A DNA stretch of 64,000 nucleotides from Phaseolus vulgaris (lineage: Eukaryota > Streptophyta > Magnoliopsida > Fabales > Fabaceae): positions 30,532,698 through 30,596,697 of the forward strand of contig NC_023755.2 in NCBI RefSeq assembly GCF_000499845.2. Direction: 5' to 3'. The position numbers and the translations under genes were made by a program. Below are positions 7,891-56,858 of the stretch, piece by piece (positions within the stretch are counted from its first letter, which is position 1; each line of letters opens with the position of its first letter). The notes beneath the pieces are model-generated. The model was not told where the DNA came from. It worked only from the letters and a program-made list of their open reading frames with translations, and made no database searches.

Positions 7891-9254
7891 TTAAGTTGGA
7901 GGCATGATCTTGCCATCCACCACTTCGTTGTACACTGAAATCTCAGAGAGGTCGAGATCGGGGAATTTGCAAGCAAACTGCTCCAAAGCTGCTCCAAAGC
8001 CGGAAGTAAGAACTTGGGCAGCCTCAAGCTGAAGCTCGTCGATCTTTGACTTGAACCCGTTGTTCTCTTCACGAACCTGGGTGATTTCAAGTTGAAGCTT
8101 GTCGACCTTCTCCTTGAACCCGTTGTTCTCTCTACGAACCCGGGTGATTTCAAGCTCAAGCTCGTCAGCTTTCTGCTTGAACCCACTGTTCTCTTCACGA
8201 ACTCGGGCAAGCTCGGTAGCCGTCTCACTCAATTCTTTGGCTGCCTTATCCCGATCTTGCTCAACTTTGCCCAGAAGAGTTTCCCGTTCGGTCGACCTTT
8301 TCTCCAGTTTGGACATTTGATCTGCGTCGGACCTTCGGGCCTCCTCCAGCTCTACGATTCGCTTCCTCATAGGAACGATTTTACTCTCCAGCTCAACGGC
8401 GTCCTGAAGCTTGTCGTGCAGTTTCTTGCACAATTCTTTCTTGTCCTTACGCAAGCTTCGGAGCTCTTTGTTGAGAGTGTTTTCGATCCGCGAGAACTCT
8501 AAGCCTTGCATCATCATGTCGCATTTGACTTTCTCGGCTTCGACTCTCGCGGTGCTTGCCACCTCCTGGTGGATGCGGCAATCGAGCTGAAGTTTGTCCA
8601 AGGAGCGTTTTAGCCCTTCGCCAACGATTTGAGGAAGGCATTCGTCGGCCATGGCGTGTAGGCGCACGTTGAAAGATTTCAAGGCTTCTTGGAGGGGAGT
8701 TGGAAGGCTCGGTGTTGGAGGAGGAGGTAGGGGTTGGTGCTCACCACCACCCTCGCAAGGTTGGATGGCGAGGGGAGCCTCGAGGCATGGTGATGAGGCT
8801 GGTAGTTTTGTTGCAGCCTGGGAGGAAGCTTGTGTATCAGCAAGCTGTTCAGGCGCAACTTCAGCAGCCGAGGTGTTGGAGGAGAGAACGTCCCCAGCGG
8901 ACTCAAAGGGCGTGGAGGCACTGGGGGGGATTCTCGGCGTAGTCAGGAGGGGCGACCTCAGCTACTGGTGGCTCAGTTGCAACTCCCCTTCTCCTTTTGC
9001 AAATCAGCCCGTCCTCGGTGCTCTCGTCCGCTTCCTCGTCTGATACAACCCTGGGGGCTTTCCTCTTAGCCCTTTTGGGTGGTAGTTTTTTCCGCTCAGG
9101 GGCGGGAAGAGCAACAGCGTTGGACGGGCCAACTGGCGGAGACTGGCCTTGGGCAGCGGCGATCTCCGTGATAGAGTTTGGGAGCCCGCCGCAAGATTGT
9201 GGAGCTTGGCTATGGAGCGTAGCTCAGCCATCCTGTCCTTCCCCAGCATCATAT

Positions 9255-9443
9255 CTGCATAAAGGGGCCAACAGTTACCGACCAGCACAAAGATTCGACA
9301 GTTAATAATGCACAGGAAGATAAGCGGTGTAAGTCAATGCGTGGAAAAAGTTAAAACCATACGCAAATCAAAACAACAACATCAAAGTAAGGACAAGGTG
9401 ATGCAAGTTTGAACTAGGGGAACTCAAAGACTTAAGGAAAAAC
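9255..9443 (-). other. Phase-1 coding intron of AS1
   Basis: On the minus strand the exon 1 end CACATAG is followed by GTTTTT, and the intron ends ...ATGCAG before ATATGATG. Joining gives '...DVHI-DMMLGK' in frame. The same junction, phase and length class (188-199 bp) occur in AS2, AS4 and AS6. Confidence 0.8.
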
Positions 9444-9476
9444 CTATGTGAACATCCAGTTGGCCTTCGAGAAACT

Positions 9477-10524
9477 TGATGTGATTCCACTAGCACAATT
9501 AGAATGATTCTTGACATTCTTAGGAATCATCTTGAGTTGGTTAAGAGCTAGGCACTTTATCATAGAAATGGATCAAGGTTCTATGAACAAGAAGTCACCA
9601 AAACTAGTGTCAAAACACAAACTCATATAGAACTTCCAATTATTGTCAAATTGAACCAACAAAAAGAGGTAAAAACCAAAGGCACCAAATAGAATTGAAT
9701 GAAAACAACTTTGAACCGAACAAAATGAAATTAAAGCCAAGAAAACTGAATAAGAAAGCTGGAAACAGAAATGTACTGAACCAAACACAAAGAAGAATAA
9801 GAACAGCTGCTGGAAAACTTAAAGCCGAACCAAAAAACTGAAGAACACCAACTCAAAACATGAACAACAAAAGAGAAGAAAGGAAGGAGAAGAGAATTGC
9901 TCATGAAGATGGATGTATGATGAATGATCACGCCACTAGAAGTATGGTTGCTCTTAGATGAGTGTGTTGCCGCCACTTGAGGACACCATGGATCCTTCAA
10001 GATAAGACTAGAGAAGAAGGCTCAAAAGCTCTCCAATGCTCACTCCAAATTTGAGTATAATTTCTTTAGATAAATTCCAATCTGAATTTTACAAAGGGAG
10101 CACCTCTATTTATAGCCTAAGGTGCTGAAAACAAAGCTAAGAGAATTCAAATTCCCTCCTAAACCTATTTAGAACCGGCGCCTAAAACCATGCATGAAGA
10201 AGGTGTGACCTCTTCCTTCACTTTGGCACCTCCTTTTCTACTTCTACACCTATCTACTAACACACCCCCCCTCCTAAAGCTCCTAACCAAAACCTAAAAG
10301 ATTCTATAACAAAAGAGGTTTCTAATGTTTCCCTCTAAGCACCTTCAACTAAAGAAATTACAAAAAGAGAAAATAAATGTCCCCTAGCTCCTAAAGCTTT
10401 GAACATGCTTCTTGTAAGCCTTTGAGGTGGGCTTTGACCTCCATGGGCGTCCTCCATTTGTGCCTCTACCTCTTCTTGATCTTGTTGATTGGCCTCCATG
10501 TCCTCTTGAGCTTGATCTCCATCA
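9477..10524 (-). mobile_element. Solo LTR S2 (TGATG...CATCA family), TSD AAACT
   Basis: This is a 1048-bp element with ends TGATGTGATTCC and CTCCATCA, flanked by AAACT at 9472-9476 and 10525-10529. It lies inside exon 1 of AS1 at the 'YEF-LEGQ' codons, and excision of the element plus one duplication restores the frame. It carries the same TATA box direction and internal 'TRSMFKALGAR' frame as S1. Confidence 0.9.
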
Positions 10525-11465
10525 AAACTCGTAGTTGATGATGGAGGAAGTAGGCAGAGTCACGTTAGAAGAGGCAACTCCTTTCCAGAAGTTGCATAAG
10601 TCTTTGTCGAACTCTCCCATTTTTTCTGGCTCCCTGGCCTTCCTGAAGCTCGACTCCTTCTTTCCCTTGTTCACCCAATACAAGGGAAACCCGTCGAGGA
10701 GGAAAGGGTCTCGGTCGTTGCAGCGAACGCGCACGAATTTCCCCTTCCAGTCCTTATAAGATTGCTGGAAGATGGAAAGGATGGACCTCCCAGCGACCCC
10801 GTTGAGGCTAACCCATAAACGATCACCCGGGTTCTTGGCCTCGAACAGGTAGAGGAACACGTCCACTGAAGCCAGATGCCCCAAGTGTGCGCAAATGATT
10901 TGGTAGGCCCGGACGAACGCCCAGCTGTTGGGATGAAGCTGGGCGGGGGCTATGTCAAGCTCGGTCAGGAGCTCCCTCTCGAAGCGGGTGAAGGGGAATT
11001 GGAGCTTGACTTTCGTGAACATTGTGGCATAGATGAAGCAGAAGGGGCCGTCGTCGCTCCCCTGGTTATCGGTGCAAATAGGCTCTCCAGGAGGACAAGG
11101 ATGCACGGATACCTTGTCATCGTGTTCCTTGCTGAAAGAAAGATGAGTTTGGTCACCTTTCTTAAGGTGGAGGATGTCGCGATCGGTGTTGATGGATGAA
11201 GTCTCACCCAGCAGGGCTGAAGAGGCCCAAGGATATAGTTGCTTGTAGTTTGGAAGGGACCTCACAACTGCGCTGGTGTGAGGTGGGTTTGGCTGCGGTT
11301 GGCTGGGTCGAGAAGGCGCGGGTCTCACGACCTTGCTCGAAGGGACGTTAGGATCCCTTGGGGGGTCGCGGGAGGAGGAAGGGTTTGCCCTACGGGTGTT
11401 CGTCGGAGGGTTGCGGGGATATGGAGGAGGGTTTGGTGTAACTTTGGAGCGAGCCATTGGAGAAG

Positions 11466-11700
11466 CTGCAAGAAGACGAAAAGGGGAAGAGATGAGAGTT
11501 TGTAAGCAGAGAGACTCAACAGAAGAGAAGGAGATAGAAGAACAAGGGGGGCTCGCAGAGAAAAGGTTTAGAAACCCTAAACGCAGAAAAGAAAAAGCGA
11601 AACAGAGAAAACATCCCACAACGTATGCTTCAGACAGTTAATGGATGATGTAAACCGATCAAAATGCAGCAAATATCAGTGGGAGTGATAAAAAAGTTAC
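11466..11700 (-). other. Leader (5' UTR) intron of AS1
   Basis: The minus strand reads AAAAG|GTAACTTTTTT ... TCTTCTTGCAG|CTTCTCCA-ATG. This is a 235-bp GT...AG intron with a pyrimidine-rich end, 8 nt upstream of the ATG. Matching leader introns sit in AS2 (235 bp), AS3 (228), AS4 (240) and AS6 (236 after removing a solo LTR). The longer open frame reaching 11619 runs into this intron and is not coding. Confidence 0.75.
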
Positions 11701-11894
11701 CTTTTGATTATCAGAAAGGTGTTCAGTAAGATGAAGATTGAGGGAGTCGAAGCGTTCGCTGAGGTGTTTCGAGAGCTTGGAACAAGGAAGAAGATAATGA
11801 AACAGTGAAGTGGCGCGAAGTGTTTAAAGGTTTTGAAGAGTCTCGAACGTTGCGAGAAGCGCAAGCGACACGAAATTATGGTCGTTGATAAGTC

Positions 11895-15624: not shown

Positions 15625-17356
15625 GTAACATTTTTACTTCTCCCACTGATATTTGCTGCATTTTAATCGGTTTGCATCATCCATTGACTGTCTGGAGCAT
15701 ACGTTGTGGGCTGTTTGTTCTCTGTTTTTTCTTTTTCTGCGTTTTAGGTTTTCTCTTCTCTGCGAGCCCCCCTTGTTCATGTTGTTTTCTTTTTCGTTTT
15801 TCACTCGAGTCATTCTGTTTATCAACCTTCCACTCTTCCCTTTTTCATCTTCTTTGCAGTTCTCCTGATGGCTCGTACAAGAATCACACCAAACCCCCCT
15901 GCCTCTTCTCGAAACCCACCTCCAAAAACACGCAGAATCCCTTCATCAGAAAACCCTTCCTCATCTCGTAACCCACCTAGGGATCCCAACGTCCCTTCAA
16001 GTCGGGCTGAGAGACCTGCACCCTCTCATCTTGACCAACCGCGACCAACCCCTCCACAATCCAGTGCCGACGCGTGCCCCACCCTTGACTACAAACTACT
16101 ATACCCCTGGGCCACTCCAGCCTTGTTGAGTGAGACCTCCTCTATCAACACTGAAGCAGATGTTCTTCGTTTGAAGAGAGGAGACAAGGCCCACCTTTCC
16201 TTTACTAAGGAACATGATGACAAGGTGGTTGTTCGCCCTTGTCTTCCTGGGGAACCTATCTGCACTGACAATGAGGCGAACAACGATCACCCCTTTTGCT
16301 TCGTCTACGCAACCGTATTCAAGAAGGTCAAGCTCAGACTCCCCTTCACTCGCTTTGAGAGGGAGCTTCTGACTGAGCTTGACATCGCCCCCGCCCAGCT
16401 GCACCCCAACAGCTGGGCGTTCGTTAGGGCATACCAAATCATCTGCGCACACCTAGGCCACCCAGCTTCTGTAGACGTATTCCTATTTCTGTTCGAGGCC
16501 AAGAAGCCAGGGGATCGTCTTTGGGTGAGCCTTAATGGGATTGCTGGGAGATCCATCCTCTCAATCTTCCAGCAATCCTACAAAGACTGGAAGGGCAAGT
16601 TTGTCCGCGTGTCCTGCAACGATCGGGATCCTACCCTTCTTGATGGATTCCCCTTCTACTTGGTGAACAAGGGGAAGAAGGAGACCCAGGACAATTTTCG
16701 GAGGGCGAGGAGTCCAGAAAAAAAGGGGGAGCTTGACAAAGACTTGTGCAACTTCTGGAAAAAAGTTGCCTCCTCCAACATCACTTTGGCCACCCTCTCC
16801 ATCATTAACTTTGAATTTGCTGAAAGTCAACTGGACTTTCACATAGGTCTGCCCTCCCTTCTTCTCCAAATTTCTCTTTCTGTGTTAAGTCCACTTTACT
16901 CTTTATCAAATTTGCTTGTATTACACTGACCTACATTCGTTCTCGGCTGTTTGATTCATACATTAGTGTTCCCATTGCTTGCTTTCCTATGCATTATTAA
17001 TTGCTTGAACTGAGTTGATTTGCAAAGATTGATCTCTTTGTGCAGACACAATGTTGGGGAAGGAGCACATGGCTAGGCTACCCTCTATAGTCAAACATCA
17101 CGACCTAGCGGCGAGCTCTCAAACCGTCCCAAATTCAGTTTTCGGAAGCTGCTGTTGCCCTGGGCAAATCCCCCCAAGTGGGCTCACCTTCCCCTGCCAC
17201 TCTTCCTGCCCCCGAGAGGAAGAAACTACCATTAAAAAGGGCCAAGAGGAAGAATCCCACGGTGGTATCGGACGAAGAAGAGGACGAGAGCACTGAGGAT
17301 GGTCTTGTTTGCAAAAGGAAAAGAGCAACCAAAACTGAGCCACCAGCGGTTGAAAG
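15625..17356 (+). pseudogene. Antisense gene AS2 of T2 (exon 1 intact, exon 2 cut)
   Basis: The leader intron is 15625-15859 (GTAACA...TTTGCAG, 235 bp) and the ATG is at 15868. Coding exon 1 (15868-16846, 979 nt) is fully open. It has a Pro/Arg-rich N-terminus, then 'LYPWATPALL', 'HLSFTKEHDDK', 'PFTRFERELLTELDIAPAQLHPNSW', 'IFQQSYKDWKGKFVRVSC' and 'ELDKDLCNFWKK'. The phase-1 intron is 16847-17045 (GTCTGC...GTGCAG). Exon 2 begins 'DTMLGKEHMARL', soon loses frame after 'SSQTVPNS', and stops at 17356 where T3 is inserted. The exon 1 domain resembles the plant 'putative gypsy type transposon' family. The role is unknown. Confidence 0.75.
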
Positions 17357-18501: not shown

Positions 18502-20715
18502 GTATGGCCCTTTTTGTTCCGATCGTCTTTATACTTCATTGTCTTGATCTCATAACTGCCTGGGATTGTTTATTTTTATGTATTTCTTATGTTTTACCCC
18601 TTTCCTCCGCATTTCTTCGTTCTCCCTTCTTTTTTGGATTTCTCACGTGGGTAGGGGTCTTCCTGGGTTTATTTCCCCTTTTCCGCCTTAACCCTATTCA
18701 CTGAACCTTTCCTCTTCTTCATTCTCCAGCTTCCTCATCAATGGCACACACTAAAACAACGGCTAACCCTCCACCCCCCTCCGTCAATCATAAGGCCCTC
18801 TATCCGTGGGCTCCGAACGACCTGCTTGACGAGTGTTCGGACTTGGTCTCCACCAAAGCTTGGAGGGACCATATAGGGGAGCCAAGCACCTATGATCACT
18901 GCGCCTTCGCGAAAAGGCACGATAACGACATCTCTGTGCTTCCTTGCACTCTAGGGGAGCCCGTGTGTGGGGACGAATGGGCTAACAACGGGGTCCCCTT
19001 CTTTTATTTTTATCAAGTGGTGTTCAAGCGTATTGGGATGCGCTTGCCCTTTTCCCGATTTGAGAGGGAGTTGCTGACGGAGATTAACATCGTCCCTGCC
19101 CAGCTGCACCCCAACGGTTGGGCTTTCGTCAAGGCTTTTGGCGTGCTGTGCGGGTTCTTTAGGTGTACTCCCTCTGTTGACGTTTTCCTACACTTCTTCG
19201 AAGTGAAGAAACAGGGGAAGAGCCTTTGGGTGAGCCTCAGCAACATCCCTGGAAGGGTCCTTTTATCCCTATTCCAGCAATCCTTTAAGGGGTGGAAAGG
19301 CAAATTCTTCAAAGTTTGCTGCTCCGAGTACGACCCCTCCGCCCTAGACGGCTTTCCCCTATACTGGGTGAAGGAGGTAAAAACTGTGAAGCCCAAATCA
19401 TTGGACGAACTGCCCTCGAACGACCGAGAGGCTTGCCAAATATTGACCAGCGTGGGGGGTTTTGACACCGCTACTCTGATAAATCTAGAGTTCAACACCG
19501 AAGCTCTAGCAAAATATATAAGTACGAATGCTTTTTGTTGTAACCTTCTGGCCTCTATTTCTGTTGGATCTTTGCTTAATGCATGATTTGCCTGCTCATT
19601 TTGTGCTTTAATTTTAACCTTTGCCTAACCTCTGCCATGTTTTGTTTCCTTGGTGCAAATTCCAAGATGGATAGGCAGTGACGGTTGTGGATGGCTCAGT
19701 TGCTGAGGCCGAAAGACGGGGCCTTGGCATCTGCCCCTCCGAGCTCTGCCACGTCCCCAGCTTCTCCCCATCCTCACTCTCAATCTGCCACGACTCCGTC
19801 AACCCCACCAGTCCAAACTTCCTTCCACCAGCCTCCAAGTTCCCCTCTTCCCATTGCGGCCATGCCTCTTGCGCTGGCCGAGGCCGCTGCTCCCTCAGCC
19901 CCCCTTGACAAAGGGAAAAGGGTGGTGGTGGTCACTGATGATGATGAAGATTCTGCTGAGGGGCAAGTCTTCAAGCGTCAAAGGACAATTCAGCATGCCC
20001 CTCAATAGGTCACCTCGACCACTTCTTCCTCTCACGGGTCCGAGTCTTTGAGGGAGGATCCCCCTAGTGCCACTTCCCCTCCTCATCCGACGAACTCGGA
20101 GGTTGAGACTGAGGCCACGACCATTCTTTCGCCTGCCCCAGAGCTCCCTCCTCCTATGCAAGATTCGTTGAGGGGGTTCCTGGCCAGGGAGTCCTCAGAC
20201 AGTCAAGTTGAAGGGGCCCAGCAAGAAAGCTTATATTACTACATGGGGGCCTTCATGTCTTGTGCTTACGCTTGGCACAAACAGTCCAGGGTCAAAACTG
20301 CTCAAAACTCTGCCTTCTAAGCACTGAAGAAGGAAGTTGCTTCCTTAAAAGAAGAGAAGGAGAAGTTAAAAAAGGAGAAGGAGAGGCTAGCCACCCACTG
20401 GGGGCGGCAGGAGGAAGCATACAAAGCCTCGCTGGAGGTGGCACAGAAAGCAAGGGAAGAGGCCAACAAACGGTTATATGAGACGGCTCAAGCCCAAGCT
20501 GGGCTCCTTAATGAAGTGGTGCCTCTTCGGAAAAAGATTGCTGATCTCGAGGCGGCTACGGAGACCTCTAAGGTATACCAGAAGAAACTTGAGGACCAGT
20601 GTGTGAATCGGGAGTAGTGACTGGGAAAGGCTGAGGTCGCACTTGCAAACAAAACTGATGAATGCTCCTGGTTAACCGCTAAGAACAACTCTCTTCAAGC
20701 ATGGAAATCAACTTA
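18502..20715 (+). pseudogene. Antisense gene AS3 of T3 (diverged subfamily)
   Basis: The leader intron is 18502-18729 (GTATGG...CTCCAG) and the ATG is at 18741. Exon 1 (18741-19521, 781 nt, phase 1) is open. It lacks most of the Pro/Arg-rich N-terminus but keeps 'LYPWAPNDLLDE', 'PFSRFERELLTEINIVPAQLHPNGWAFV', 'SVDVFLHFFEVKK', 'LFQQSFKGWKGKFFKVCC' and 'DGFPLYWVKE'. The donor is GTACGA. The expected TGCAG acceptor reads TGCAA near 19657, suggesting a G-to-A splice mutation. Exon 2 has a Pro/Ser-rich segment, an acidic 'TDDDEDSAEG' stretch, then a long coiled coil with 'NKRLYETAQ' and 'VVPLRKKI'. It holds in-frame stops at 20006, 20318 and 20613. It is clearly a separate subfamily from AS1/2/4/6. 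Confidence 0.7.
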
Positions 20716-28829: not shown

Positions 28830-29549
28830 TGTACCGATCAGGTAGTCGGAAGTGATGACGTGGCAGCAAGCGATAATGTAGACGTGTTGAGCGGAACACC
28901 TGGCTGACAGAAGGGAAGCACATCGGGAAGTTTGTGCAGTCGCCAATTGTTAGCTTGGCGTTCTCCGATCTCTGGTATGTATAACCGGCGGTCACCAGGC
29001 TCGCGTCATAGTCGCCGTATGTGAGTTTAGGCGACCAAGTGGTCAGAGACCGCCGAAAGGGGCACATCGCCGAAGGATCATGAAGGCTTGCTTAAGGCTT
29101 TCAAGGGGTACTAGTACGAAGGTCGAAGTTATCAGATGATCATTCCCTGGCCAGAGGTCGATGCAAGGGAACAGTTTACCAGAACATGCACGATGTGCAA
29201 GTAAAGCATATCGTGATAGCAGCAGGCGAGACCACAGAGAAGGTGTACATGGTGACACCCCGTACTCGCCGCTTAAGGGGTCGCGCTCCAAGGAAGCTGT
29301 AGTTACTCCTCGCATGGGTAACTTAGTCAAATAGCTTGAAGAGTAGAGGTGACGCTCAAGTAGAAGGTGGCTCCAGATGGTGACACGTGTACAGCTGGAT
29401 GCGAGCCACGTGTCCAGAGGTGTAACCGTCAGGAGAGAGAAAGTGCTCAGGTATATAAGGAACTCTAACGAACTTCTGAGGTACGCGCGTTTAGAACACT
29501 TCTTTACGCTTTTGAGAGACTCTTGCACTGGAGTCAACCGGCAGGATCA
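28830..29549 (+). mobile_element. 5' LTR of T4 (720 bp, internally deleted)
   Basis: TGTACCGATCAGG...CCGGCAGGATCA. Relative to the 946-bp 3' LTR, about 226 bp are missing between the TTTTGAGA near 29515 and GACTCTTGCACT. GAGA/AGA microhomology at the edges points to illegitimate recombination. The TATA box and upstream CACGTG motifs are retained. Confidence 0.9.
29452..29458 (+). promoter_or_regulatory. TATA box of T4 5' LTR
   Basis: GTATATAAGG follows two CACGTG motifs (GACACGTGTACAG and GCCACGTGTCC, near 29381-29413). The 3' LTR reads GTATATAAAG in the same place. Confidence 0.55.
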
Positions 29550-29999: not shown

Positions 30000-32900
30000 A
30001 TGAGAAAGATGAGAAGTACGCGTTCCAGTCCCGTTGTGTCAGCTGCTGTAGAAGGCGCCATGACCATGGCGCAGATGATGGAGATCATGCGCGCGTTGCA
30101 AGAAAACGTGGAGGCATCGCGCATAGAGCAGGCGAAGATGCATGAAGACCTGGTCGCCTCTCAGGCCAGGAATGAAGAGCTCAGCAAGGTCATGGAGGAA
30201 TTGCGTCAAGCTCTTCAGGAGCAGAGAGGACGCACAGTTGTTGAAGAAGTTGCGCCGTCATCGCCACCGCGCGTTTTCCCAATGCCGTTTGCTCAGGCGA
30301 TCACGGACACGCCGATCCCTGCGAGCGTGGTACCTGTGAAAGCCTTTTTCACCGGCGTGGAGGATCCTGAAGCACATCTCACTACGTTCCACACACAGAT
30401 GATGCTGTCAGGAGGCTCAGATGCTATCTATTGTAAGATGTTTGTGAGCACGCTCCAGGGAACAGCGCTGGAATGGTTTGTTAGCTTGCCTACAGGTCAC
30501 ATAACCAATTTCCAGCAGTTTTCGAAGCTTTTCGTCGACCAGTACATTGTGAACAAGGCGCCACCTAGGGTGTCTTATGACCTGTTCGATGTGAGGCAGT
30601 ACCAGGGAGAGTCCCTCAGGGACTATTTGAATCGTTTTGGAGCACAGATGGTCCGGTCGCCTGCCAAAGACGAGGAGATGTTGGTATACGCCTTCAAAAA
30701 GGGCGTGCTGTCGGGACCTTTCTGTGAGGCGCTGATTAGGGCCCACCCCGCCATGTTTGCTGAAGTTAGGCGACTTGCTGTGGCCCACATCGCCGACGAG
30801 AGTGAGGTCGCCGAGAAGAGAGGGAGCGTGGCTCCTGCTAGGCCACGAGCCCAGACTAGAATCCAGCCGCAGAGGGTGCTGGAGACGGCGGCGGCCAAGA
30901 AGGATCAAAGGACTCGCCATCCTTACGATCCAAAGAAAAACAAGGGAAGGGGCCCAGGGCGCCCTAGGGAGTTCAATCGCCCACCCAGGTACAAGTTTGT
31001 CATGGGATTGGCGGACCTGATTGCCATTCCCAACATAGCTGCCAGGCTTAAAGCGCGTGAGAAAGTTGGCGACAAGGTGTTAGGACCAAAGCCAAACGCC
31101 TGGTGTGAGTTCCACCAGAGTTTTGGTCACACCCTTGATTCGTGTTTGGCCCTGGGTTACCAGCTCGACGACCTGGTCAAGAGCGGCTTCTTGAATGATT
31201 ACTTGCTGGACAAGAGGACGGGGGGTGCGTCGAGCTCTCAGCCGGCGAGTGGTGAGGGTCAGCAGCATGAGATGCCCACTCATGGCGAGATCCACACCAT
31301 CGCCGGAGGTTTCTCAGGTGGTGGGTGCACTGTATCACAGCGGAAGAAGTATGCAAGGTCTGTGATGGCAGTAGATGTGTTTGAAGATCACTCGCCAGAT
31401 GTGGACATTACGTTCACAAAGGAGGATCTCAGGGACGTTGTGCCTCACGACAACGATCCCATAGTGGTCTCGCTAGTCACGGCGGGAAGGAAGGTCCATC
31501 GGGTGCTGGTGGACCAAGGAAGCTCGGCAGATGTGATGTTCTGGCCGACTTTCACCAAGTTGCAACTACCCCTTGACCAGCTAAGACCCTATGGAGGATG
31601 CTTATATGGGTTCGCTGGCGATCAGGTGGAGGTCAGGGGGTACGTTGAGCTGAGAACAACGTTCACGGATGAGGTGGCCTCTAGGACGGAGAAGATCAAG
31701 TACCTCGTTGTGAACGCCCCCTCAGCGTATAACATTCTGTTGGGAAGGCCAACCCTCAACAGAATAGGAGCTGTGCCCTCAACCAGGCACATGAAGGTTA
31801 AGTTACCATCAATGGAGGGGGTGGTGATCACTATCAGATCTGACCAGAAGGAGGCGAAGAAGTGCTATGAAAATAGCCTCAAGAATAAAAGGTCAGTAAG
31901 TTACATCACCACGACGCCGCCTCCTGGTGTGAAGCCCAGGCCAACAGAATGGCGAGTTGTTGATGCGGCGATGGAAGTGGCCGCCGGAGGCGATGTCACC
32001 ATGATAGACGCTGAGGTTGAGGGAAAGAGCGCCGGACAGGAAGAAGAAGCGAGAAACCACCCAGAGGAAGCGAGGGAGTCGGGAATCGCCAGGGCGGTGA
32101 TCGCCAGGGAAACCAGACCCAAACCCGTCGAGGAGTGGCTTGAGAGGGAGATCGGGGGCAAGGTCTTCAAGTTGGGAAGATATTTGGAAGGTGAGCTCCA
32201 ATACCAGATCGCCAAGGTGATAGAACGGCATTTGGATGCTTTTGCATGGTCTGCTTCAGACATGCCGGGAATTGACCTCGACTTCTTGTGTCACCATTTG
32301 GCAATGGACACACAGGTCAGACCAGTGCTACAGAGAAGAAGGAAGTTTAATGAGGAGAGGAGACAGGCGATTAGGGATGAAACGCAGAAGCTCCTCGCCG
32401 CAGGCCATATCAGGGAGGTCCAGTACCCTGAATGGTTAGCTAATGTCGTACTGGTGAAGAAGAGCAACGGGAAGTGGCGCATGTGCGTCGACTTCACGAA
32501 CTTGAACAAGGCTTGTCCAAAGGATTCATACCCTTTGCCAAGCATAGATGCCCTGGTCGACAGCGCAGCAGGGTGCAAGTTGCTGAGTTTTCTGGACGCC
32601 TTCTCGGGGTACAACCAGATAAAGATGCATCCTATGGATGAAGAGAAAACTGCCTTCATGACTGAGAGATCGTGCTACTATTACAAGGTGATGCCCTTCG
32701 GGCTGAAGAACGCGGGGGCCACGTACCAAAGGTTGATGGATAAGGTACTTGCACCGATGCTGGGAAGGAATGTGCAAGCGTACGTAGATGATATGGTCGT
32801 GACCTCGTTAGAGAAAAGCAAGCACGTCTCAGATCTGGAGGAGCTGTTTACCATGATTGCCAAGTTCAGATTAAAGCTAAACCCCGAGAAGTGCATTTTT

Positions 32901-35330
32901 GGCGTGGAGGCGGGGAAGTTCTTAGGTTTCCTCTTAACTGAAAGGGGAATAGAGGCAAATCCTGATAAGTGTGCTGCCATCTTGGCGATGAGGAGCCCGG
33001 CTACCGTGAAGGAGGTGCAGCAGCTTACAGGTCGGATGGCCGCCCTGTCTCGTTTCGTATCAGCTAGTGGAGAGAAAGGCCATGCGTACTTCCAATGCTT
33101 AAGGCGAAACAACAAGTTTATCTGGTCGAAGGAATGCGAAGAAGCCTTCGTGAAGCTTAAAGAATACCTGGCGAGCCCGCCGGTTTTGTGCAAACCTTTG
33201 GTGGGAACCCCTCTCGGGTTGTATTTTGCTGTAATTGAGAGGGCGGTGAGTGCGGTGCTCGCCCAAGATCAAGATCAGGCCCAGAAGCCTATTTATTTCG
33301 TCAGCAAGGTGTTGTAAGGCCCAGAAGTAAGGTATCAGGCCTTGGAGAAAGATGCGCTGGCTGTAGTATTTTCGGCGAGGAGGTTGCGCCACTATTTCCA
33401 CAGTTTTACAGTGCTGGTGATGACCGACCGCCCATCCAGAAAGTCTTGAAGAAGCCTGATGTAGCTGGGAGAATGGTGAAGTGGGCAGTGGAGCTGTCGG
33501 AGTTCGACATCAAATATGAGCCCCGAGGACCGATCAAGGGGCAGATTTTCGCTGATTTCGTGTTCGAGCTCTCGTCGGAAGCGGCGCCAGTTGAGGGGGA
33601 CGATTTTTGCTGGGTGCTTTCGGTGGAAAGATCGTCTAACCAGCAGGGTAGCGGTGCTGGAGTTATTCTAGAAGGGCCCAACGACGTGCTGATAGAACAA
33701 TCCCTGAGGTTTGCCTTTAAAGCTAGCAACAATCAAGCAGAATATGAGGCGTTGATCGCCGGAATCTTGTTGGCTAAGGAGATGGGGGCTAGGGTGTTGA
33801 TGGCCAAGAGTGACTCATTGTTAGTCACGAGACAAGTAACAGGCGAGTTCCAGGCCAAGGATCCACAAATGGTGGCTTACTTGGAGTACGTGCAGGAGTT
33901 GAAGAGTTCCTTTGTCTCATTTGAAGTAGTGCATGTGCCCAGAGAGCAAAATGCCCGAGCTGACTTGCTAGCCAAGCTCGCCAGTTCGGGCAAGGGGGGT
34001 AGGCAGAGGACAGTTATCCAAGAAACTCTGAAGACTCCTAGAGCGTTTGTGGAAGACCACCTGGTTCTTCAGATAAGCAAGTCGACGGAGAAAGCGGCGA
34101 GGAGTCACAGGTCCTTGACCTAGGAGACCTTGAGATCGCCGAGAATAAGAGCATGTCGGGGGGAGAGGGTGAACATGACGCAGGTCTGCGCTACGCATAA
34201 GCCAGACACATGGATAACGCAATACCAGCGCTGCCTGGCATATGGCCTCCTCCCGCTGGATCCGACGGAGGCTAGGAAGATAAAGAAGAACTCCAGCAAG
34301 TTCACCATGATCGATGGCGAGCTGTACAGGTTTGGGTTTACACACCCACTCCTAGAATGTGTGCACGGAGAAAAATGCACTAGAATTATGGCCGAGCTCC
34401 ATGAAGGTATATGTGGGAGTCACGTCGGGGGACGAGCTCTGGGTGCAAGAACTCTCCGTGCAGGTTATTATTGGCCAACGATGAGGGAGGACTGCAAGAA
34501 GTATGCACAGTGTTGCAAACAATGTCAGCAGCACGCCGATTGGCACAAGGCGCCTCCAGAAGAGCTGAAGTCAATTTACAGCCCTTGGCCGTTTCATACT
34601 TGGGGAATTGACATTCTGGGACCTTTCCCATTGGCGGTCAGGTCTCGTGTGCCAGTTTGGTGTGCCTAAGTGCCTGGTGTCGGACAACGGAACTCAGTTT
34701 GCAAGTCACCTGTTGAAGAAGCTATGCGAAGAGGTGGGAATACAACAGGTGTTTGCATCCGTCGAGCACCCACAGACAAATGGCCAAGTAGAGTCTGCCA
34801 ATCGGGTGTTGCTGAGAAGTTTAAAGAGAAGGCTAGAGAAAGCTAAGGGATCGTGGGCTGAAGAGGTACCCCGCATAGTTTGGGCGTACCATACCACTGA
34901 ACAGTCAGAAACTCACGAGACCCCGTTTAGCTTGGTTTATGGATGTGATGCAATGATTCCAGTTGAAATCCAGGAAAGCTCGCCGAGATTCCAGAACTTT
35001 GTGGTGGAAGACTCGAATGAAGAAAGAAGGTTAAATCTGGATTTACTGGATGAGGTCAGGGAGGAGGCAAGAGTAAAAGCCGAGGCAGTAAAAAGAAGGA
35101 TTGAGCGAAGATACAACTCCAAGGTAATGCCAAGGCAATTTAGAGAGGGCGACCTGGTGATGAGGAAAGCCCATCAGTACGAGATGGAGAACAAGTTATC
35201 GCCTAAGTGGACGGGACCGTTCAGAATAACCGAGGTGCTCGGGAACGGCGCCTACCGCTTAGAGACGTTAGAAGGAGGGGCGATTCCTCGCACCTGGAAC
35301 GCCACACACCTCAAGTTATATTACAGTTAA
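30000..35330 (+). pseudogene. T4 gag-pol polyprotein (near complete, broken)
   Basis: The start is 30000, or more likely 30009, where 'MRSTR' matches 'MRNTR' of T5. Residues 15-75 form a coiled coil. The retrotransposon gag domain spans roughly 105-260 ('GVEDPEAHL', 'WFVSLPTGHI', 'YQGESLRDYLNRF'). The knuckle 'CEFHQSFGHTLDSC' is at about 368. Protease 'LVDQGSSADVMF' is at about 501. RT spans 790-980 with 'FLDAFSGYNQIKM' and 'YVDDMVV' at about 928, then the first RNase H. TAA at 33315 replaces Gln, one base is lost near 33430, and TAG at 34121 replaces Gln. The second RNase H is at 33600-33990. Integrase has 'WGIDILGPFPL', then a deletion near 34640 before 'VSDNGTQF' and 'NGQVESANR'. The C-terminus ends at 35330. 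Confidence 0.92.
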
Positions 35331-35945: not shown

Positions 35946-35989
35946 ATGACTAAAGACCTCAACGCTCTCGTGCGTCTTGGGGCAAGAAA

Positions 35990-36250
35990 GAGAAAAAGAC
36001 CTCCTCACCTTTGAGCGAGTGTAGGCAAGAAAAAGTCCTCCTCGACTCTGAGCGAGTGTAGGCAAGAACAAGTCCTCCTCGCCTTTGAGCGAGTGCAGGC
36101 GAGAAAGAGAAGAAGTCCTCCTCGCCTTTGAGCGAGTGCAGGCGAGAAAGAGAAGAAGTCCTCCTTGCCTTTGAGCAAGTGCAGGCAAGAAGAAGTCCTC
36201 CTTGCCTTTGAGCAAGTGCAGGCAAGAAAAAGTCCTTTTCACCTTAGAGT
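35990..36250. repeat. ~40-bp hairpin tandem repeat, about 7 units (T4 3' region)
   Basis: GTCCTCCTCGCCTTTGAGCG...GCAGGCGAGAAAG units, each bounded by CTCGCC and GGCGAG arms. A long minus-strand frame across it (to 35850) encodes only repeats of itself and is not a gene. 35331-35564 and 36251-36944 around the arrays are conserved untranslated element sequence with no gene. Confidence 0.85.
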
Positions 36251-36944
36251 GAGTTCAGGCAAGATGAACTGAAAAGTCAGGGGTGTTCGTGACCTTAAAC
36301 GGTGGGAAGGGAAGGAAAAATGGCTTTTCCCCTTTAAGTGAAACATCAATATTGACCCAGTAAGACCAGATCATTGTTCTGAAACTCAGGGAGGTAGAGA
36401 AGGATCCGAAAGGTGCCTCTACCCCCAGATGAGGGAACAATGGTCAAGATATGAAGGTAAGGAGGGTCACATCGCCAGAACCCTACGGCGATCAGAAGAA
36501 TTCCAGGCGATGACGGGTGTAAGGGCTCACTTTGTTGGGCAGATCAGGTAAACTGTATTGTGGTACTAGTTTAAGTTAAAACCTGCTGCCTAGTAAGTAA
36601 CTTATGTTAAAGTTTGTTGCCTTAAGTTCACAAGTTATATTAAATGTCATCGCTTGAAAGTTAATAGTTGCTCAAGTTCTACTTTGAGTTAACTGTTTGA
36701 TAAATTGTTATGAAGTTAACAGTTTATTCAAGTTTGAAGCAGTGTGTGAAAGCGAGTAAAAGTGAGCAGCATTTAAAGAGAAGTATTAGAAAACAACTTT
36801 TCAGCATTGAAAGTCATACAAAAGTGGCTATTCAAGTTTGAACACGAATGTGATCAAGTACATAAGCAGAAGAATTACATATAAAGTTTTTACAAACAAA
36901 AGATGAGCGCCAAGTTTCAAAAACAAGGTGATGGAGGGAGGCAG

Positions 36945-39529
36945 CTAGTCTTCAGAGGGTACGATCTTCCCATCCACCACCTCGTTGCAGATTGACACCA
37001 TGGAGAGGTCGAGCTCGGGGTATTGGCATGCAACCTTCTCCAGAGCGGCGTCGAACCCGGCGGTGAGGACTTGGGCAGTGCTTTGCTCGAGCTCTTGTGC
37101 TTGTTTCTTCAGTTCTTCCGTTTCCTCACGAGCTCGAGCTAGGTCCTCAGCAGCCTTTTTGCCTTCGTCCTGAGCCTGGGCCAACTCTGCAGCAGTCTTT
37201 GTGGCCTCCTCTCGAGCTTTGGCGAGCTCAGCAATGGCATCGTCCCTCTCCTTTTCAACCTTTCCGAGGAGAACCTCCCGATCTACTGACCTTTTCTCAA
37301 GGTTTTCCATCTTGGTCGCATCCGCCTTTTTCGCAGCCTCCAAGTCTGCCACCTTGAGCCGGAAAGGGACCGGTTTGCTTTCCAAGTCGATTTTCTCTTA
37401 TACTTGGAGGTGCAGTTTTTGGCGCAGATCGGAGGCTTCCTTGCGCACGCTCCTTAGCTCAGCATCCATGGCGTCCTCCAGCCTTGAGTGCTCCAACTCA
37501 GCCATCAGCAGGTTGCACGAGAGCTTTTCAGCCTCAGCCCTTGTAATCAGATTTGACTCCTTGAGCGCTGAGTTTTCATCTTGGAGCTTCTTGAGTGCGT
37601 CCTTCACAGCTTTTGATACTATGGAGGGGAGATCCTTCGCCATCATCTTCAGTTTAGCTGTGAAGGGCCCCAAGATCTCTTCGAGGGAGGTTGGGAGGCT
37701 TGAGGTTGTTGTTGGTGGAGGTGCTGGAGGAGTTTGGTGCTGATTTTCACCACCACCCTCTTGAGTTTGAAGGGCAAGGGGGGCTTCTTGGCGTAGTGGT
37801 GAGGTCGGAGATTCTGTTATGAGTATTGGCGAATTATGAGCGCCTTCATCTCCTCCTGGTGCGACCCCAGCAATAGAAGTGGTTGAAGGAGGACCCTCTC
37901 TGGCAGATACGAATGGCGTGGAGGCGCTTGGAGGGTTCTCAATGAAGCTTGGGTCGCTGCTTTCAACCACGGGGGGTGCGGCGGCCAAGAGTGTTGCTTG
38001 GACTGGTTGTGATGGAGCTGGAAGTGAGGGCGGTGTTGGTGTTGGGAGTGCAAGTGGTGAAGAGGGGGTCGCCCTTGTTCTCTTGGTGACGAGGCCATCC
38101 TCAGTCGCCTCGTCATCCTCTTCTTCCTCTTGTACCACTTGAGGAGCTTTCCTTTTTGGTTTCCTCAAGATCAGCTTTTTCCTTTGAGGGGCGGGTAGTA
38201 CCCCGGAAGAGGTTGCACCTCGGGGAGGAGTCTTGCCTTGAGCAGCGGCGATCTCCACCACCGAGTTGGGCACGGTTTGGGAGCCTGCCGCGAGCTTATG
38301 AGACCGGGCGATCGCCCTCAGTTCAGCCAGCTTCCCTTTGCCCAACATATTATCTGCGCAAGATAAAGAACAAATGAGCAACCAAGGCAGAAGCCAAACA
38401 TGCAAGCGCATTCATATAAGATAACACAAGCAGTACATGGATGAAAGATCGGAGTCAACACAGAATAATGAAATGCCAAAATATAGTGGTGAAGACGCTA
38501 AGTTAATGTTAACTCGAAGTGAAAGACTTGGTGCTGGGGCAGGAGCTAACCTATGTGAGCTTCGAGTTGGTCCTCAAGGAACTCGAAGGTGATTATGGAG
38601 GCGGTGGGGAGGGTGATATTGGCAGCGGCCACACTCTTCCAGAAGAGGCAGAGATCTTTGTCTAACTCCCCCATATTGTCAGGACTCCTTGGCCTCCTGA
38701 AGCTTTCTTTAGAGTCTTTGTTCCTCTTGTGTACCCAGTACAAGGGGAAGCCGTCGAGCAGGGAAGGGTCTTGGTCGTTTTGGCACACCTTGACGAACTT
38801 CCCCTTCCAGTCTTTGTAAGATTGCTGGAAGATCGAGAGGATTGACCTCCCAGCAATCCCGTTCAAGCTAATCCAGAGGCGATCTCCGGGATTCTTGGCC
38901 TCGAACAGGAAAAGAAAGACATCCACTGAAGCCGGCAGCCCCAAGTGTGTGCAGATGATTTGGAACGCCCTCACGAACGCCCAGCTGTTGGGATGAAGCT
39001 GGGCAGGGGCGACGTTGAGCTCGGTTAGTAGCTCCCTCTCGAAGTGGGTAAAAGGAAGCCTAAGCTTCACTTTCTTGAAGAATGTCGTGTAGATAAAGCA
39101 GAACAACTCGCCATTGTTCCCCTTATTATCCGCGCAGATCGGTTCCCCGGGGAGGCAGGGTAGCACGATCATTTTGCTATCGTGCTCTTTGTGGAAGGAG
39201 AGGTCGGATTGGTCTCCTTTCCGCAGTCGGTGCACGCCCAGCTCGGTGTTTATTGAGGATGTCTCCTTCAGCAGAGTCGGGGTGGCCCAAGGGTAGAGTT
39301 CTTTATAGTCTTGTGGAGGAAGGGAGGCTCCTCCGGCGACTGGTGGAGTTGCCTAAGTAGGATTGGCGTGAGAAGAAGTAGGCCTCTCAGCCTGATTAGA
39401 AGGAGCACCAGAGGCTCGTGGTGGGTTGCGCGCTGGTGGAGGATTTGCCCCAGGAGCAACCCTACGGGCTTGGGGTGGAGGGTTTCGTGATGAAGGAGGA
39501 GGGTTCGCGGTGGACTTTGTGTGAGCCAT
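36945..39529 (-). pseudogene. Antisense gene AS4 of T4 (best preserved copy)
   Basis: The ATG is at 39529-39527, two coding exons are 39529-38551 (979 nt) and 38353-36945 (1409 nt), and the intron is 38550-38354. The spliced frame is 796 codons including the stop, with no frameshift. It has only two in-frame stops, TAG at 39355-39353 and TAA at 37400-37398. Exon 1: Pro-rich tail, 'LYPWATPTLL', 'DLSFHKEHDSK', 'FERELLTELNVAPAQLHPNSWAFV', 'SVDVFLFLFEAKNPGDRLW', 'FQQSYKDWKGKFVKV'. Exon 2: 'DNMLGKGKLAELRAIARSHK', basic 'RKKLILRKPKRK', acidic 'EEEEDDEATEDG', Pro/Ser-rich middle, then heptads and the tail 'LDLSMVSICNEVVDGKIVP'. It looks like a nuclear coiled-coil protein. Function is unknown. Confidence 0.8.
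38354..38550 (-). other. Phase-1 coding intron of AS4 (197 bp)
   Basis: On the minus strand GCTCACATAG|GTTAGCTCC ... TTATCTTGCGCAG|ATAATATG. Splicing joins 'EAHI' to 'DNMLGK' in frame, the same position as in the other copies. Confidence 0.8.
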
Positions 39530-39537
39530 CGCAGGAA

Positions 39538-39777
39538 CTGCAAAGGAAAGAGAAAAGGATGAAATGAGGATAACAAAGAACGACTCGATTGAGGATGAAG
39601 AAGACAGAACGAACGAATAAGGGTTCGCTAGGATAAACGTTATGAAGGACGAAGCCCTAAGTCACGAGAAAAGGAGAAAAGGAAAAAACAGCCCACAACG
39701 TATGCTTCAGACAGATAAAGGATGATGCAAACCGATTAAAATGCAGCAAATATCAACAGAAGAAGTAAAAGGGGTAC
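39538..39777 (-). other. Leader intron of AS4 (240 bp)
   Basis: Minus strand ACAAAAAG|GTACCCCTTTT ... TTCCTTTGCAG|TTCCTGCG-ATG. It contains the conserved TGATATTTGCTGCATTTTAATCGG-type block found in the leader introns of AS1, AS2 and AS6. Confidence 0.75.
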
Positions 39778-40111
39778 CTTTTTGTGATCAGATGAGCGTT
39801 GAAGAAAGTTGAAGATTGAGAGAGACGAGAAGCTTCGTGGTTCGCAGAGAAAACGCTTAGAACGCTTGAGAGTGAAGAAAGATGATGGAACAGTGGAAGC
39901 GCAAAGGGTTTAAGGGTTTTTCGAACGTTTTCGGAAGCGCAAACGACAGTTGAAGACGACCGTTGATGAAGCCACGTATCGAGTGATGGAAAAAGAGGTT
40001 GGTGGAGCGTCAGAAAAGCAGAGGGTACGGGCGTACGGAAATCTGCGCCAGTGCCACGTAGATCGACGATGACGTGGCCTCTTAGTCTTTTCGCTGGTCA
40101 AGTCTCAGCTT

Positions 40112-40127
40112 AAGACTGGGGGGCTTG
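40112..40127 (+). other. Polypurine tract of T4
   Basis: AAGACTGGGGGGCTTG directly before the TGTACC of the 3' LTR. Confidence 0.75.
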
Positions 40128-41073
40128 TGTACCGATCAGGTACTCGGAAGTGATGACGTGGCAGCAAGCGATAATGTAGACGTGTTGAGCGGAACACCTG
40201 GCTGATAGAAGGGAAGCACATCGGGAAGTTTGTGCAGTCGCCAATTGTTAGCTTGGTGTTCTCCGATCTCTGGTATGTATAACCGGCGGTCACCAGGCTC
40301 GCGTCATAGTCGCCGTATGTGAGTTTAGGCGACCAAGTGGTCAGAGACCGCCGAAAGGGGCACATCGCCGAAGGATCATGAAGGCTTGCTTAAGGCTTTC
40401 AAGGGGTACTAGTACGAAGGTCGAAGTTATCAGATGATCATTCCCTGGCCAGAGGTCGAGGCAAGGGAACAGTTTACCAGAACATGTACGATGTGCAAGT
40501 AAAGCAGATCGTGATAGCAGCAGGCGAGACCACAGAGAAGGTGTACATGGTGACACCCCGTACTCGCCGCTTAAGGGGTCGCGCTCCAAGGAAGCTGTAG
40601 TTACTCCTCGCATGGGTAACTTAGTCAAATAGCTTGAAGAGTAGAGGTGACGCTCAAGTAGAAGGTGGCTCCAGATGGTGACACGTGTACAGCTGGATGC
40701 GAGCCACGTGTCCAGAGGTGTAACCGTCAGGAGAGAGAAAGTGCTCAGGTATATAAAGAACTCTAACGAACTTCTGAGGTACGCGCGTTTAGAACACTTC
40801 TTTACGCTTTTGAGAACACTTGAGTACGCTGAGAGAACATTTGCACGGTTCCTTGAGTTTAGCTTTTCTCTCTTAGTATTTGGTGGTTCTGTCACTGACT
40901 TGAGCGTCGGAGCGCGATCGGCCGCAGCGACGCCATTCTGTGTCTTTGTTTTCTTCAGGTTCTCGAGAGGATTTGAGACGTGGAGATCGAAGGCTAGCGT
41001 GGTGCGAAGCTGATCGAGAGAAGATACCTTTGACGTGGCAAGACTCTTGCACTCGAGTCAACCGGCAGGATCA
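40128..41073 (+). mobile_element. 3' LTR of T4 (946 bp)
   Basis: TGTACCGATCAGG...CCGGCAGGATCA. It retains the segment lost from the 5' LTR, including GACTTGAGCGTCGGAGCGC, a block shared with the T1, T5 and T6 LTRs downstream of the TATA box and so probably in R/U5. Confidence 0.92.
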
Positions 41074-44398: not shown

Positions 44399-44418
44399 TT
44401 TGGCGCCCACTGTGGGGC
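44399..44418 (+). other. Primer binding site of T5
   Basis: TTTGGCGCCCACTGTGGGGC directly after the LTR end. It is the cleanest copy of this site in the window. Confidence 0.7.
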
Positions 44419-44466
44419 ACGATCTAAAACGCTGTCCCACCAACAAGAACCATAAAGATTGAGAAG

Positions 44467-54388: not shown

Positions 54389-55348
54389 ATCTCCCTCTCT
54401 TCCGTCGAGTCTCTCTGTTTACGAACTCTCATATCTTCCCTTTTCGTCTTCTTGCAGCTTCCTCGATGGCTCGTTCAAAAATCACACCAAACCCTTCCTC
54501 CTCCCGCGACCCCCCAAGGGGTCCTAACGTCCCTTCCGACCGAGTCGCGAGACCCGTGTCTTCTCGACCTAACCAACCACAACCAAACCCACCACAACCC
54601 AGCGCGACTATACCCGTGGGCTTCCGCAACCCTGCTGGGTGAGACTTCATCCATCAACACTGATCGCGATATCCTTCGTGTCAAGAAAGGTGATGCGGAT
54701 CACCTCTCTTTCAGCAAAGAGCACGATGACAAAGTAGTTGTGCGCCCTTGTCCTCCCGGTGAGCCAATCTGCACCGATAATCAGGGAGCGACGACGCCCC
54801 TTTCTGCTTTGTCTACGCCACCATGTTCAAGAAGGTCAAGCTTCGGTTTCCCTTCACACGCTTTGAGAGGGAGCTCCTGACCGAGCTCGACATAGCCCCC
54901 GCCCAGCTTCATCCCAATAGCTGGGCGTTCGTCCGGGCTTACCAAATTATCTGCGTGCACTTGGGACACCCGACCTCGGTGGATGTGTTCCTGTACCTAT
55001 TCGAGGCGAAAAACCCGGGCGATCGTCTATGGGTTAGCCTCAATGGGGTCGCTGGGAGGTCCATTCTCTCCATCTTCCAGCAATCCTATAAGGACTGGAA
55101 GGGGAAGTTCGTGCGTGTTTGTTGTAGCGACCAAGACCCTTCCCTTCTCGACGGGTTCCCCTTGTATTGGGTGAACAAGGGGAAGAAGGAGTCGAGCTTC
55201 AGGAAGGCCAGGGGGCCAGAAAAAATGGGAGAGCTCGACAAGGACTTGTGCGGTTTCTGGAAAAGAGCCGCCTCCTCCAACGTGATTCTGCCCACTTCCT
55301 CCATCATCGCCTACGAGTTTCTCGAAGGCCAGCTAGACGTTCACATAG

Positions 55349-55536
55349 GTTTGTCCTTAAGCCCTTGAGTTCCCTTAGCCTACACTTGCATCGCCCCGTC
55401 TTTATTTTGATGTTGTTGTTCTGACCTGTGTGTGGTTTTAACTTTCCCCATTCATTGTCTTATATTGCTTATCTTTCTTTGCATTGTTAACTGCTGAATT
55501 CTTGTGCTGGTTGGTAACTATGGGTCACTAATGCAG
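55349..55536 (+). other. Phase-1 coding intron of AS6 (188 bp)
   Basis: CACATAG|GTTTGTCC ... CACTAATGCAG|ATATGATG. CACTAAT shortly before the acceptor is a reasonable branch-point-like motif. The junction reads 'DVHI-DMMLGK'. Confidence 0.8.
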
Positions 55537-56858
55537 ATATGATGTTGGGGAAGGATAGGATGGCTGAGCTACGCGCCATAGCCAAGTCCCACAAACTTGC
55601 GGCGGGCTCCCAAACAGTCCCGAACTCTGTCGCGGAGATCGCCGTTGCCCAAGGCCAATCATCGCCGGTGGGTCCACCCGCAGCTGCTGCTCTTCCAGCC
55701 CCCCAACGCAAGAAACTACCCCTTAAGAAGGCTAAGAGGAAAGCCCCCAGGGTAGTGTCAGACGAAGAGGCAGACGAGAGCACCGAGGACGGGCTAGTCT
55801 GCAAGAGGAAGAGGGGGGCTGTGATCGAGCCCCCACCAATTGAGAGCGCCGCCCCAAACTATATCGAGAGCCACCCCAGCGCCTCCACTCCATTCGAGTC
55901 TGCTGGGGATGTTCTTGCTTCGATCGCCTCAGTTGCTGAAGCCGTTCTTGAGCAACTTGCTGATACGCAAGCCTCTTCCCAAGTCGCCGAAGAACTTCCT
56001 GCCTCACCACCACGCCTCGAAGCTCCCCCCGCCATCCAACCTTGTGAGGGTGGTGGTGAGCACCAACCTCCGCCTCCTCCAGCAACCTCAAGCCTCCCAC
56101 CCCCTCTTCAGGAAGCCTTGAAGTCCTTCACCGTGCGCCTAAGTGCCATGGTTGACGATTGTCTTCCCCAAATCGTCGGCGAAGGGCTAAGGGACTCCTT
56201 GGAGAAGTTCGAACTTGATAACCGGGTCCATCAGGAGGTGGCGAGCACCGCGAAGGCCGAAGCCGAGAAGACCAAGTGCGACATGCTGATGCAAGGCCTC
56301 GAGTTTTCGCAGGTCGAAAACGCTCTCAAGGACGAGCTTCAAACCGTGCGCAAGGACAACAAAGAACTGCGCAAGAAGCTTCATGACAAACTCCAAGACG
56401 CCGTCGAGCTGGAGAACAAGATCGTCCCTCTGAGGGAGAAAATTGCCGCGCTGGAGGAGGCAAAGAAAACCGATGCCGAAAAGATGGCCAAGCTGGAGAA
56501 AAGGTCGACTGAGAGGGAGACCCTTCTGGGGAAAGTCAAACAGGATCGGGACAAGGCCTCCAAAGAATTGAGCGAAACTGCTACCGAGCTTGCCCGGGTT
56601 TGCGAAGAAAACAACGGGTTCAAGAAGAAGATCGACGAGCTCGAGCTTGAAATTACCCAGGTTCGTGAAGAGAACAGTGGGTTCAAGTCGAAGATCGACG
56701 AGCTTCAGCTTGAAGCTGCCCAAGTTCTTACTTCCGGCTTTGGAGCGGGTTTGGAGCAGTTCGCTTGCAAATTTCCCGACCTTGACCTCTTAGAGTTTTC
56801 GGTGTACAATGAAGTGGTGGACGGCAAGATCGTACCCCCAGTTGACTTATCGCCTTGA

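Follow-up and report, generated by a model that had tools for sequence, protein, structure and literature searches.

Genes antisense to gag-pol have been reported from several long terminal repeat (LTR) retrotransposons of plants, and the present analysis concerns such a gene in common bean. The window, 64,000 nt of Phaseolus vulgaris contig NC_023755.2 (positions 30,532,698 to 30,596,697 of the forward strand, numbered here from its first letter), is Phaseolus DNA and contains several Tat-like elements of the Ty3/gypsy type, called T1 to T6. The antisense gene, described mainly from T4, is real and belongs to a known kind; it has an apparently undescribed split structure, and the tandem arrays of these elements offer a concrete candidate target for it.

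Antisense open reading frames (ORFs) occur in all Retand clusters analysed by Vicient (2025; PMC11963269), with TRP28 in 97%; DNA binding is predicted for them, and Smc and other domains are reported there too. The Transposase_28 domain was found in 23% of Retand elements (Neumann, 2019; PMC6317226). Among the transposable-element families of common bean, Retand is reported to be the most abundant, and an additional RH (RNase H) is named for autonomous Retand; a non-autonomous bean subfamily of Retand is reported to have inserted recently and to be induced when plants are infected by virus, so that active relatives exist (PMC13392006). In common bean, 15 Ty3-gypsy families have an antisense ORF2, found by means of FGENESH and GENSCAN (Gao et al., 2014; PMC4093653). 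Also comparable is gene23 of the maize element Grande (Gomez-Orte et al., 2013), an antisense accessory gene of a related element. According to a review (Vicient and Casacuberta, 2020; PMC7264820), gene23 is transcribed from its own promoter and gives a nuclear protein; the review also urges that antisense and spliced transcripts be examined. In the literature on these elements, as far as covered, the function of the antisense gene is given as unknown. The sequence-only reading that this work follows up had named the antisense frames of Grande and Retand, which are indeed known, but it understated the record, since antisense ORFs are published for common bean as well.

The T4 gene lies where the Retand/Tat TRP28 ORF (aORF-3R) lies, antisense to gag-pol and between pol and the 3' LTR, and it shares with the Retand ORFs the domain and the tandem arrays nearby (PMC11963269). 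Those ORFs are ORF Finder predictions, whereas in the present elements the TRP28 part and the coiled-coil part seem to be exons of a single gene; the words "intron", "coiled" and "purifying" are absent from that article, and "splic" and "exon" are confined to its references. Should the TRP28 and Smc-like ORFs prove to be exons of the same gene, surveys based on ORF finders have divided one protein in two, and the spliced form is the one to use in localisation and knock-out experiments. The bean ORF2 comes from the same genus, is likewise antisense between pol and the 3' LTR and in some cases has an SMC match, and the window copies may belong to these families; the predictors used there can place introns, yet the word "intron" is absent from the text, and Transposase_28 does not occur in the passages considered (PMC4093653). 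The exon structure was not found described in the literature covered, with priority uncertain, the original accounts of Grande (2013), of the extra ORFs (2011) and of Retand (2006) falling outside that scope.

Two more distant systems are instructive. The HBZ gene of HTLV-1 also yields a spliced antisense transcript from the 3' LTR and a regulatory protein (PMC1459196), but it belongs to a human retrovirus and has its first exon in the 3' LTR, whereas the coding exons here are internal; the likeness drawn here is one of function. The VANC protein of VANDAL is a possible parallel as an element-encoded protein whose targets form tandem repeats varying between related elements (PMC5735166), although VANDAL is another kind of transposon, VANC is another protein, and hypomethylation is shown there, against shared dyads alone here.

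Exons, introns and codon pattern of the antisense gene

The antisense gene is, on the evidence of this section, very probably a spliced coding gene. Its T4 copy (Table 1) has a first coding exon with a proline-rich N-terminus followed by the PF04195/Transposase_28 domain, and splicing to exon 2 gives 2388 nt, or 796 codons including the stop. A shared plan had been proposed for T1, T2, T3, T4 and T6, and it is present in all five, with damage. The hidden Markov model check that had been suggested gave in-frame PF04195 matches in exon 1 of all five copies, at 29.9–44.2 bits against a curated cut-off of 26.2. Upstream, T1, T2 and T4 share a conserved stretch of 350 nt, from the polypurine tract to the leader donor, that contains ACGTGG blocks and is less well conserved in T3; we infer that the gene has its own promoter there, near the 3' LTR. 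The T/A-rich stretch after the stop codon is possibly the poly(A) region.

Details of the plan that had been claimed hold in part. The leader intron near the ATG has its acceptor 8–11 nt upstream in all five copies, but its donor is seen in only four; T6 keeps the acceptor only, with disruption upstream, and T3 has a donor of its own and CAG. Exon 1 lengths are 3n+1 throughout (T1 961, T2 979, T3 781, T4 979 and T6 883 nt), but this is not strong evidence on its own, because T6 arrives there by two cancelling deletions of 29 nt and 1 nt, with the stretch between them out of frame, and T1 only when an LTR-like insertion of about 1 kb is skipped. The phase-1 intron and the coiled-coil exon belong to the plan of every copy, and the intron has GT..AG borders in four of the five, but T3 has lost the acceptor (AA at 19657–19658 instead of AG), T2 exon 2 ends after 306 nt, and T1 exon 2 is frameshifted. 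Exon 2 of T6 is open, with 439 aa.

The codon pattern shows selection for a protein on the antisense strand. In the method of Nei and Gojobori, applied to all ten pairs of T1, T2, T3, T4 and T6, exon 1 has dN/dS of 0.07–0.29 in the proposed frame in eight pairs (the other two have saturated dS), with T4 at 0.15 against T1, 0.07 against T2 and 0.12 against T6. Four of the other frames give 0.79–1.96, and the fifth, on the opposite strand with shared third positions, gives 0.15–0.55. For exon 2, in-frame values cover four of the six possible pairings among T1, T2, T4 and T6 (T1-T2, T2-T4 and T3 being left out): 0.16 for T6-T1, 0.13 for T6-T2 (100 codons), 0.23 for T4-T6 and 0.17 for T4-T1. A ratio near 1 among young copies had been named as a sign of a passive sequence; between these copies neither exon shows such a ratio (0.07–0.29 and 0.13–0.23), and chance ORFs are ruled out by the low ratio in the proposed frame.

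Evidence for the phase-1 intron beyond the window comes from relatives of the T4 product, 50 matches from the best 8000 candidates scored. The best named ones are P. vulgaris proteins, with weaker named matches in P. coccineus, Mucuna and Arachis. Among the matches listed are eight annotated proteins of P. vulgaris that start close to the exon 1 end, and seven of these (P0003, P0005, P0017, P0024, P0033, P0034 and P0041) join the halves exactly at the phase-1 site, in models that are annotated and may be predictions only. With a conserved phase-1 donor, an unspliced translation shows G, S, C or R at the junction (codon NGT). In an alignment of 216 sequences among the matches listed, 149 have sequence on both sides, and 141 of these fit (108 G, 24 S, 9 C; 8 others); the count is approximate because several of the 8 are misaligned, as are some fitting ones (such as P0162), and the database proteins may not all be independent of one another. 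A smaller first set fits in 72 of 77 cases. Ninety-four sequences run on for at least 15 further residues, and these tails are 56% hydrophobic against 39% upstream, as would be expected of a translated pyrimidine-rich intron.

The acceptor side agrees. Eight matches lack exon 1 sequence but extend beyond exon 2 on its upstream side, where six of them read AD, as GCAG/AT would. Both halves stand in one open frame with the intron retained in P0045, P0046 and P0171; the last residues of the retained intron are AG or SG in P0045, P0046, P0047 and P0172 (fitting AG/GT), VD in P0175 (fitting GTAG/AT) and VG in P0202 (fitting GTAG/GT). Relatives were also sought in viral contigs and none was found there, so that no outside DNA was at hand and the family-wide test rests on protein read-through. 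Transposition would leave the introns in place, since it proceeds through the sense RNA of the element, from which introns of the antisense strand are not removed.

Several points weigh against a spliced, selected gene. None of the five window copies is intact, and the 796-codon frame of T4, which had been put forward as free of frameshifts and is so, holds two in-frame stops (codon 59 of exon 1 and one inside exon 2). The promoter is presumed from a conserved block. Exon 1 dS is high (0.57–2.9), which makes the dN/dS ratios rough, and exon 2 is less constrained than pol, for which dN/dS is 0.04–0.07 in six of seven comparisons of these elements (the seventh is saturated). Some relatives do not follow the scheme: P0014 joins the halves at another site and P0018 joins other points, P0031 and P0039 use an earlier donor with the same acceptor, two of the eight upstream extensions lack AD (P0037 has MD, P0042 one residue), and the retained intron of P0171 has no fitting end.

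The retained intron is open in P0045, P0046, P0047 and P0171, and its hydrophobic translation could pass for a membrane segment.

Table 1. Coordinates of the antisense gene copies, the arrays and element T4 in the window
Feature	Position	Strand	Remarks
T4 leader exon and presumed promoter	39778..40127	-	polypurine tract/3' LTR to leader donor; conserved in T1, T2, T4
T4 leader intron	39538..39777	-	donor AAAAG/GT at 39778/39777, acceptor TTGCAG; aligned in T1, T2, T4
T4 last 8 nt of 5' leader before ATG	39530..39537	-	
T4 exon 1, coding part	38551..39529	-	979 nt (3n+1), ATG 39529 to phase-1 donor
T4 phase-1 intron	38354..38550	-	GT..GCGCAG
T4 exon 2	36945..38353	-	acidic stretch, KRxR patch, PPSAS motif, heptad region, C-terminal motif; ends TAG
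T4 T/A-rich stretch with TATGTAAT	36865..36905	-	after stop codon in T1, T4, T6 (alignment)
T1 copy	7891..11701	-	ATG 11457; exon 1 to 10525, LTR-like insertion, exon 1 end 9444
T1 copy, continued		-	intron to 9255; exon 2 from 9254, frameshifted
T2 copy	15868..17351	+	exon 1 15868-16846, open; intron 16847-17045; exon 2 truncated at 17351
T3 copy	18741..20635	+	exon 1 18741-19521, open; exon 2 from about 19659, with stops
T6 copy	54466..56858	+	exon 1 54466-55348; intron 55349-55536; exon 2 55537-56858
T1 array after pol	6639-6941		TRF
T3 array after pol	21459-21841		TRF
T4 arrays after pol	35569-36264	+	TRF; two tandem arrays
T5 array after pol	47169-48296		TRF
T6 array after pol	57857-58347		TRF
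T4 5' LTR	28830..29525	+	98.7% identical direct repeat with 40128-40822
T4 3' LTR	40128..40822	+	direct repeat
T4 gag-pol, several frames	30000..35330	+	Pfam: gag, RT, RT_RNaseH_2, RVT_3, integrase (below cut-off)

The predicted protein and explanations of its role

Exon 2 has features that recur in relatives. After the junction, an acidic stretch and then KRxR follow in T4, T3 and six database representatives, and seven of these eight also have a PPSA motif. In the proline-poor region, heptad positions were counted by a crude measure of our own with 100 shuffles; the tail of T6 exon 2 has 164 in 239 residues, against a mean of 22.9 and a maximum of 101 in the shuffles. The motif GF..AL.Q.AC..P.LDLS....VVDG.IVP, with variants, closes six of seven aligned proteins, namely the six that reach that end. 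Together with purifying selection on both exons and the donor fit, the heptad region and a C-terminal motif that distant relatives share bear out the selected role that had been proposed for a protein-coding antisense gene.

Exon 2 does not resemble an SMC protein, for which ATPase head domains and a hinge would be expected: no Pfam SMC match up to E 0.1 was found in T6 exon 2 or in the open part of T4 exon 2, and T6 exon 2 has only weak matches of coiled-coil type, below cut-off. A SUMO-interaction motif beside the patch resembling a nuclear localisation signal (NLS) was considered and dropped; it occurs in 3 of 14 representatives (T3, P0046 and P0047), against a mean of 0.4 and a maximum of 2 in shuffles, in a set of which 6 of the 14 are not exon 2 sequences and 4 of 67 carried the motif before clustering. 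In P0050, an Arachis "TMV resistance protein N", a PF04195 match stands beside other domains, possibly in a fused gene model.

As best explanation, the antisense gene would be transcribed from a promoter of its own beside the 3' LTR, and its transcript spliced so that the Transposase_28 exon joins the coiled-coil exon. The product, an accessory protein of about 790 aa, would be nuclear and oligomeric and would act in trans on the DNA of the element itself or on nuclear complexes, in transcription, silencing or integration. That the protein is a nuclear accessory factor of some kind, the most economical of the roles considered, seems to us an evenly balanced proposition. Its nuclear location is suggested by the NLS-like patch and by the statement on Grande in the review of Vicient and Casacuberta (PMC7264820), and our confidence was lowered because the patch had been selected by its own pattern. 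For the same reason, KRxR in eight exon 2 representatives gives no rate, a point that counts against this explanation. So do the heptad count of T4, which at 85 of 268 (shuffle mean 16.1) falls just below the best shuffle, 86, and the lack of a PDB relative for PF04195, a domain whose Pfam name points to a DNA transposase (best E 0.28 with a profile of 60 homologues).

A rival role would be to aid nuclear entry or target choice of the pre-integration complex, with no part in transcription or silencing. The NLS-like patch and the heptad region would suit such a protein, and the review raises import of this complex and retroviral accessory factors in this context (PMC7264820). No integrase interaction domain was found, though no search aimed at one was made, and the dyads shared by the arrays would be left unexplained; we consider this role unlikely, while keeping it in view.

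Regulation through RNA, in which antisense RNA pairs with sense RNA to limit the element and the protein is incidental, appears improbable. Double-stranded RNA regulation is raised as an option in the review (PMC7264820), and some non-coding sequence is kept: the leader intron of T1 or T2 is 64–66% identical to that of T4, a level close to the roughly 70% of exon 1, with exon 2 at 59–60% (some intron windows for these figures are one base off at one end). Intron 2, however, is only 44–53% identical to that of T4, nucleotide changes fall on third positions, and one frame has low dN/dS.

That the TRP28 and coiled-coil exons are two separate antisense genes with a spacer between them is very improbable. 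The 2025 survey gives TRP28 and Smc-like antisense ORFs as separate domains (PMC11963269), and many database proteins begin with the ATG that closely follows the acceptor, or stop at the donor or shortly beyond it. Against this stand the donor residue fitting in 141 of 149 homologues, the GT..AG borders in every window copy except T3, the seven annotated models that join the halves, and the three full-length relatives with both halves in a single frame. Unspliced RNA could still yield the TRP28 half alone. Passive, functionless DNA caught by the element, as the damage to all five window copies might suggest, can practically be set aside given purifying selection on both exons and family-wide conservation.

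Array dyads as a candidate target

Tandem arrays follow pol in five Tat-like elements, each of them matched for gag or pol, the T2 element not being delimited. In T4 two of them lie between pol and the antisense gene, with four exact TCGC-N6-GCGA dyads. Their units differ, with 37–49 nt and, in T5, 149 nt, and AAGTCCTCNTCGCC is common to them: it has 49 matches with at most two mismatches against 1.4 expected, 46 of which are in or adjoin arrays, all 46 in element sense. The dyad TCGC-N5/6-GCGA occurs 31 times in the window against 0.86 expected, and 29 of the 31 lie within arrays, which make up 6% of the window (T1 6, T3 6, T4 4, T5 7, T6 6), when array limits slightly wider than those of Tandem Repeats Finder (TRF) are used (6540–7070, 21430–21850, 35560–36290, 47169–48440 and 57700–58560). 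Across spacers of 0–30, only 5, 6 and 15–16 are conspicuous, and at 15–16 a third half-site within the unit is used again. In 21 ungapped comparisons between units, nine beat all 300 Markov draws, including T5-T4A, T4A-T6B, T4A-T3B and T6B-T3A.

The antisense protein might recognise these dyads, a prediction from the sequence that we hold to be rather unlikely as it stands. It would then be a nuclear factor by which the element family recognises itself: the coiled coil would make a dimer, the TRP28 part would read DNA, and TCGC-N5/6-GCGA would be the target. T5 consists of LTRs (43638–44263 and 48780–49405), gag (44563–45756) and pol remnants within 43638–49405, and the antisense gene was not detectable in it by tblastn; with dyads and no gene, it would be served in trans. 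If true, this would be an LTR-retrotransposon counterpart of VANC anti-silencing, with one mechanism for the antisense gene and for the family-specific Retand arrays. With a dyad common to dissimilar arrays, a loosely defined role in regulation becomes open to a direct test of binding.

There are points to set against recognition of the dyad. Its enrichment is partly circular, because the motif was read off these arrays, and copies within one array are not independent. In T4 only four of about 15 units have the exact dyad. Among the unit comparisons, which are 21 tests without correction, T4B matches only T3B (2 of 300 Markov draws), and T5-T6B, T5-T3B and T5-T1A are weak (16–22 of 300).

Enrichment of GGCGA as such was dropped, gag-pol being also fourfold over shuffles. 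At 36150–36230 of T4, three GCGAG-like half-sites in two units have changed together to GCAAG, with symmetry or pairing kept. In the T5 array, the base before the dyad varies between units.

Element T4 and its neighbours

The plus strand of T4 has, in this order, gag, reverse transcriptase (RT), native RNase H (RT_RNaseH_2), a second RNase H (RVT_3) and integrase, the last below cut-off. We take a second RNase H between the native one and integrase to be a mark of the Tat clade, and by Pfam T4 has a second RNase H before its integrase. Its pol ends at about 35330 (+), followed by the antisense gene (39529–36945, −) and the 3' LTR from 40128, before which is a polypurine tract; a target-site duplication was looked for at the ends of T4 and none was seen. 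The antisense gene is opposite to the pol matches in T1, T3 and T6 as well, and T2 has no assigned pol match. A sequence of about 1 kb, LTR-like, is present in three copies (3795–4768, 9477–10527 and 53402–54388), two of which break T1, one in pol and one in antisense exon 1, and the third ends just upstream of the T6 gene.

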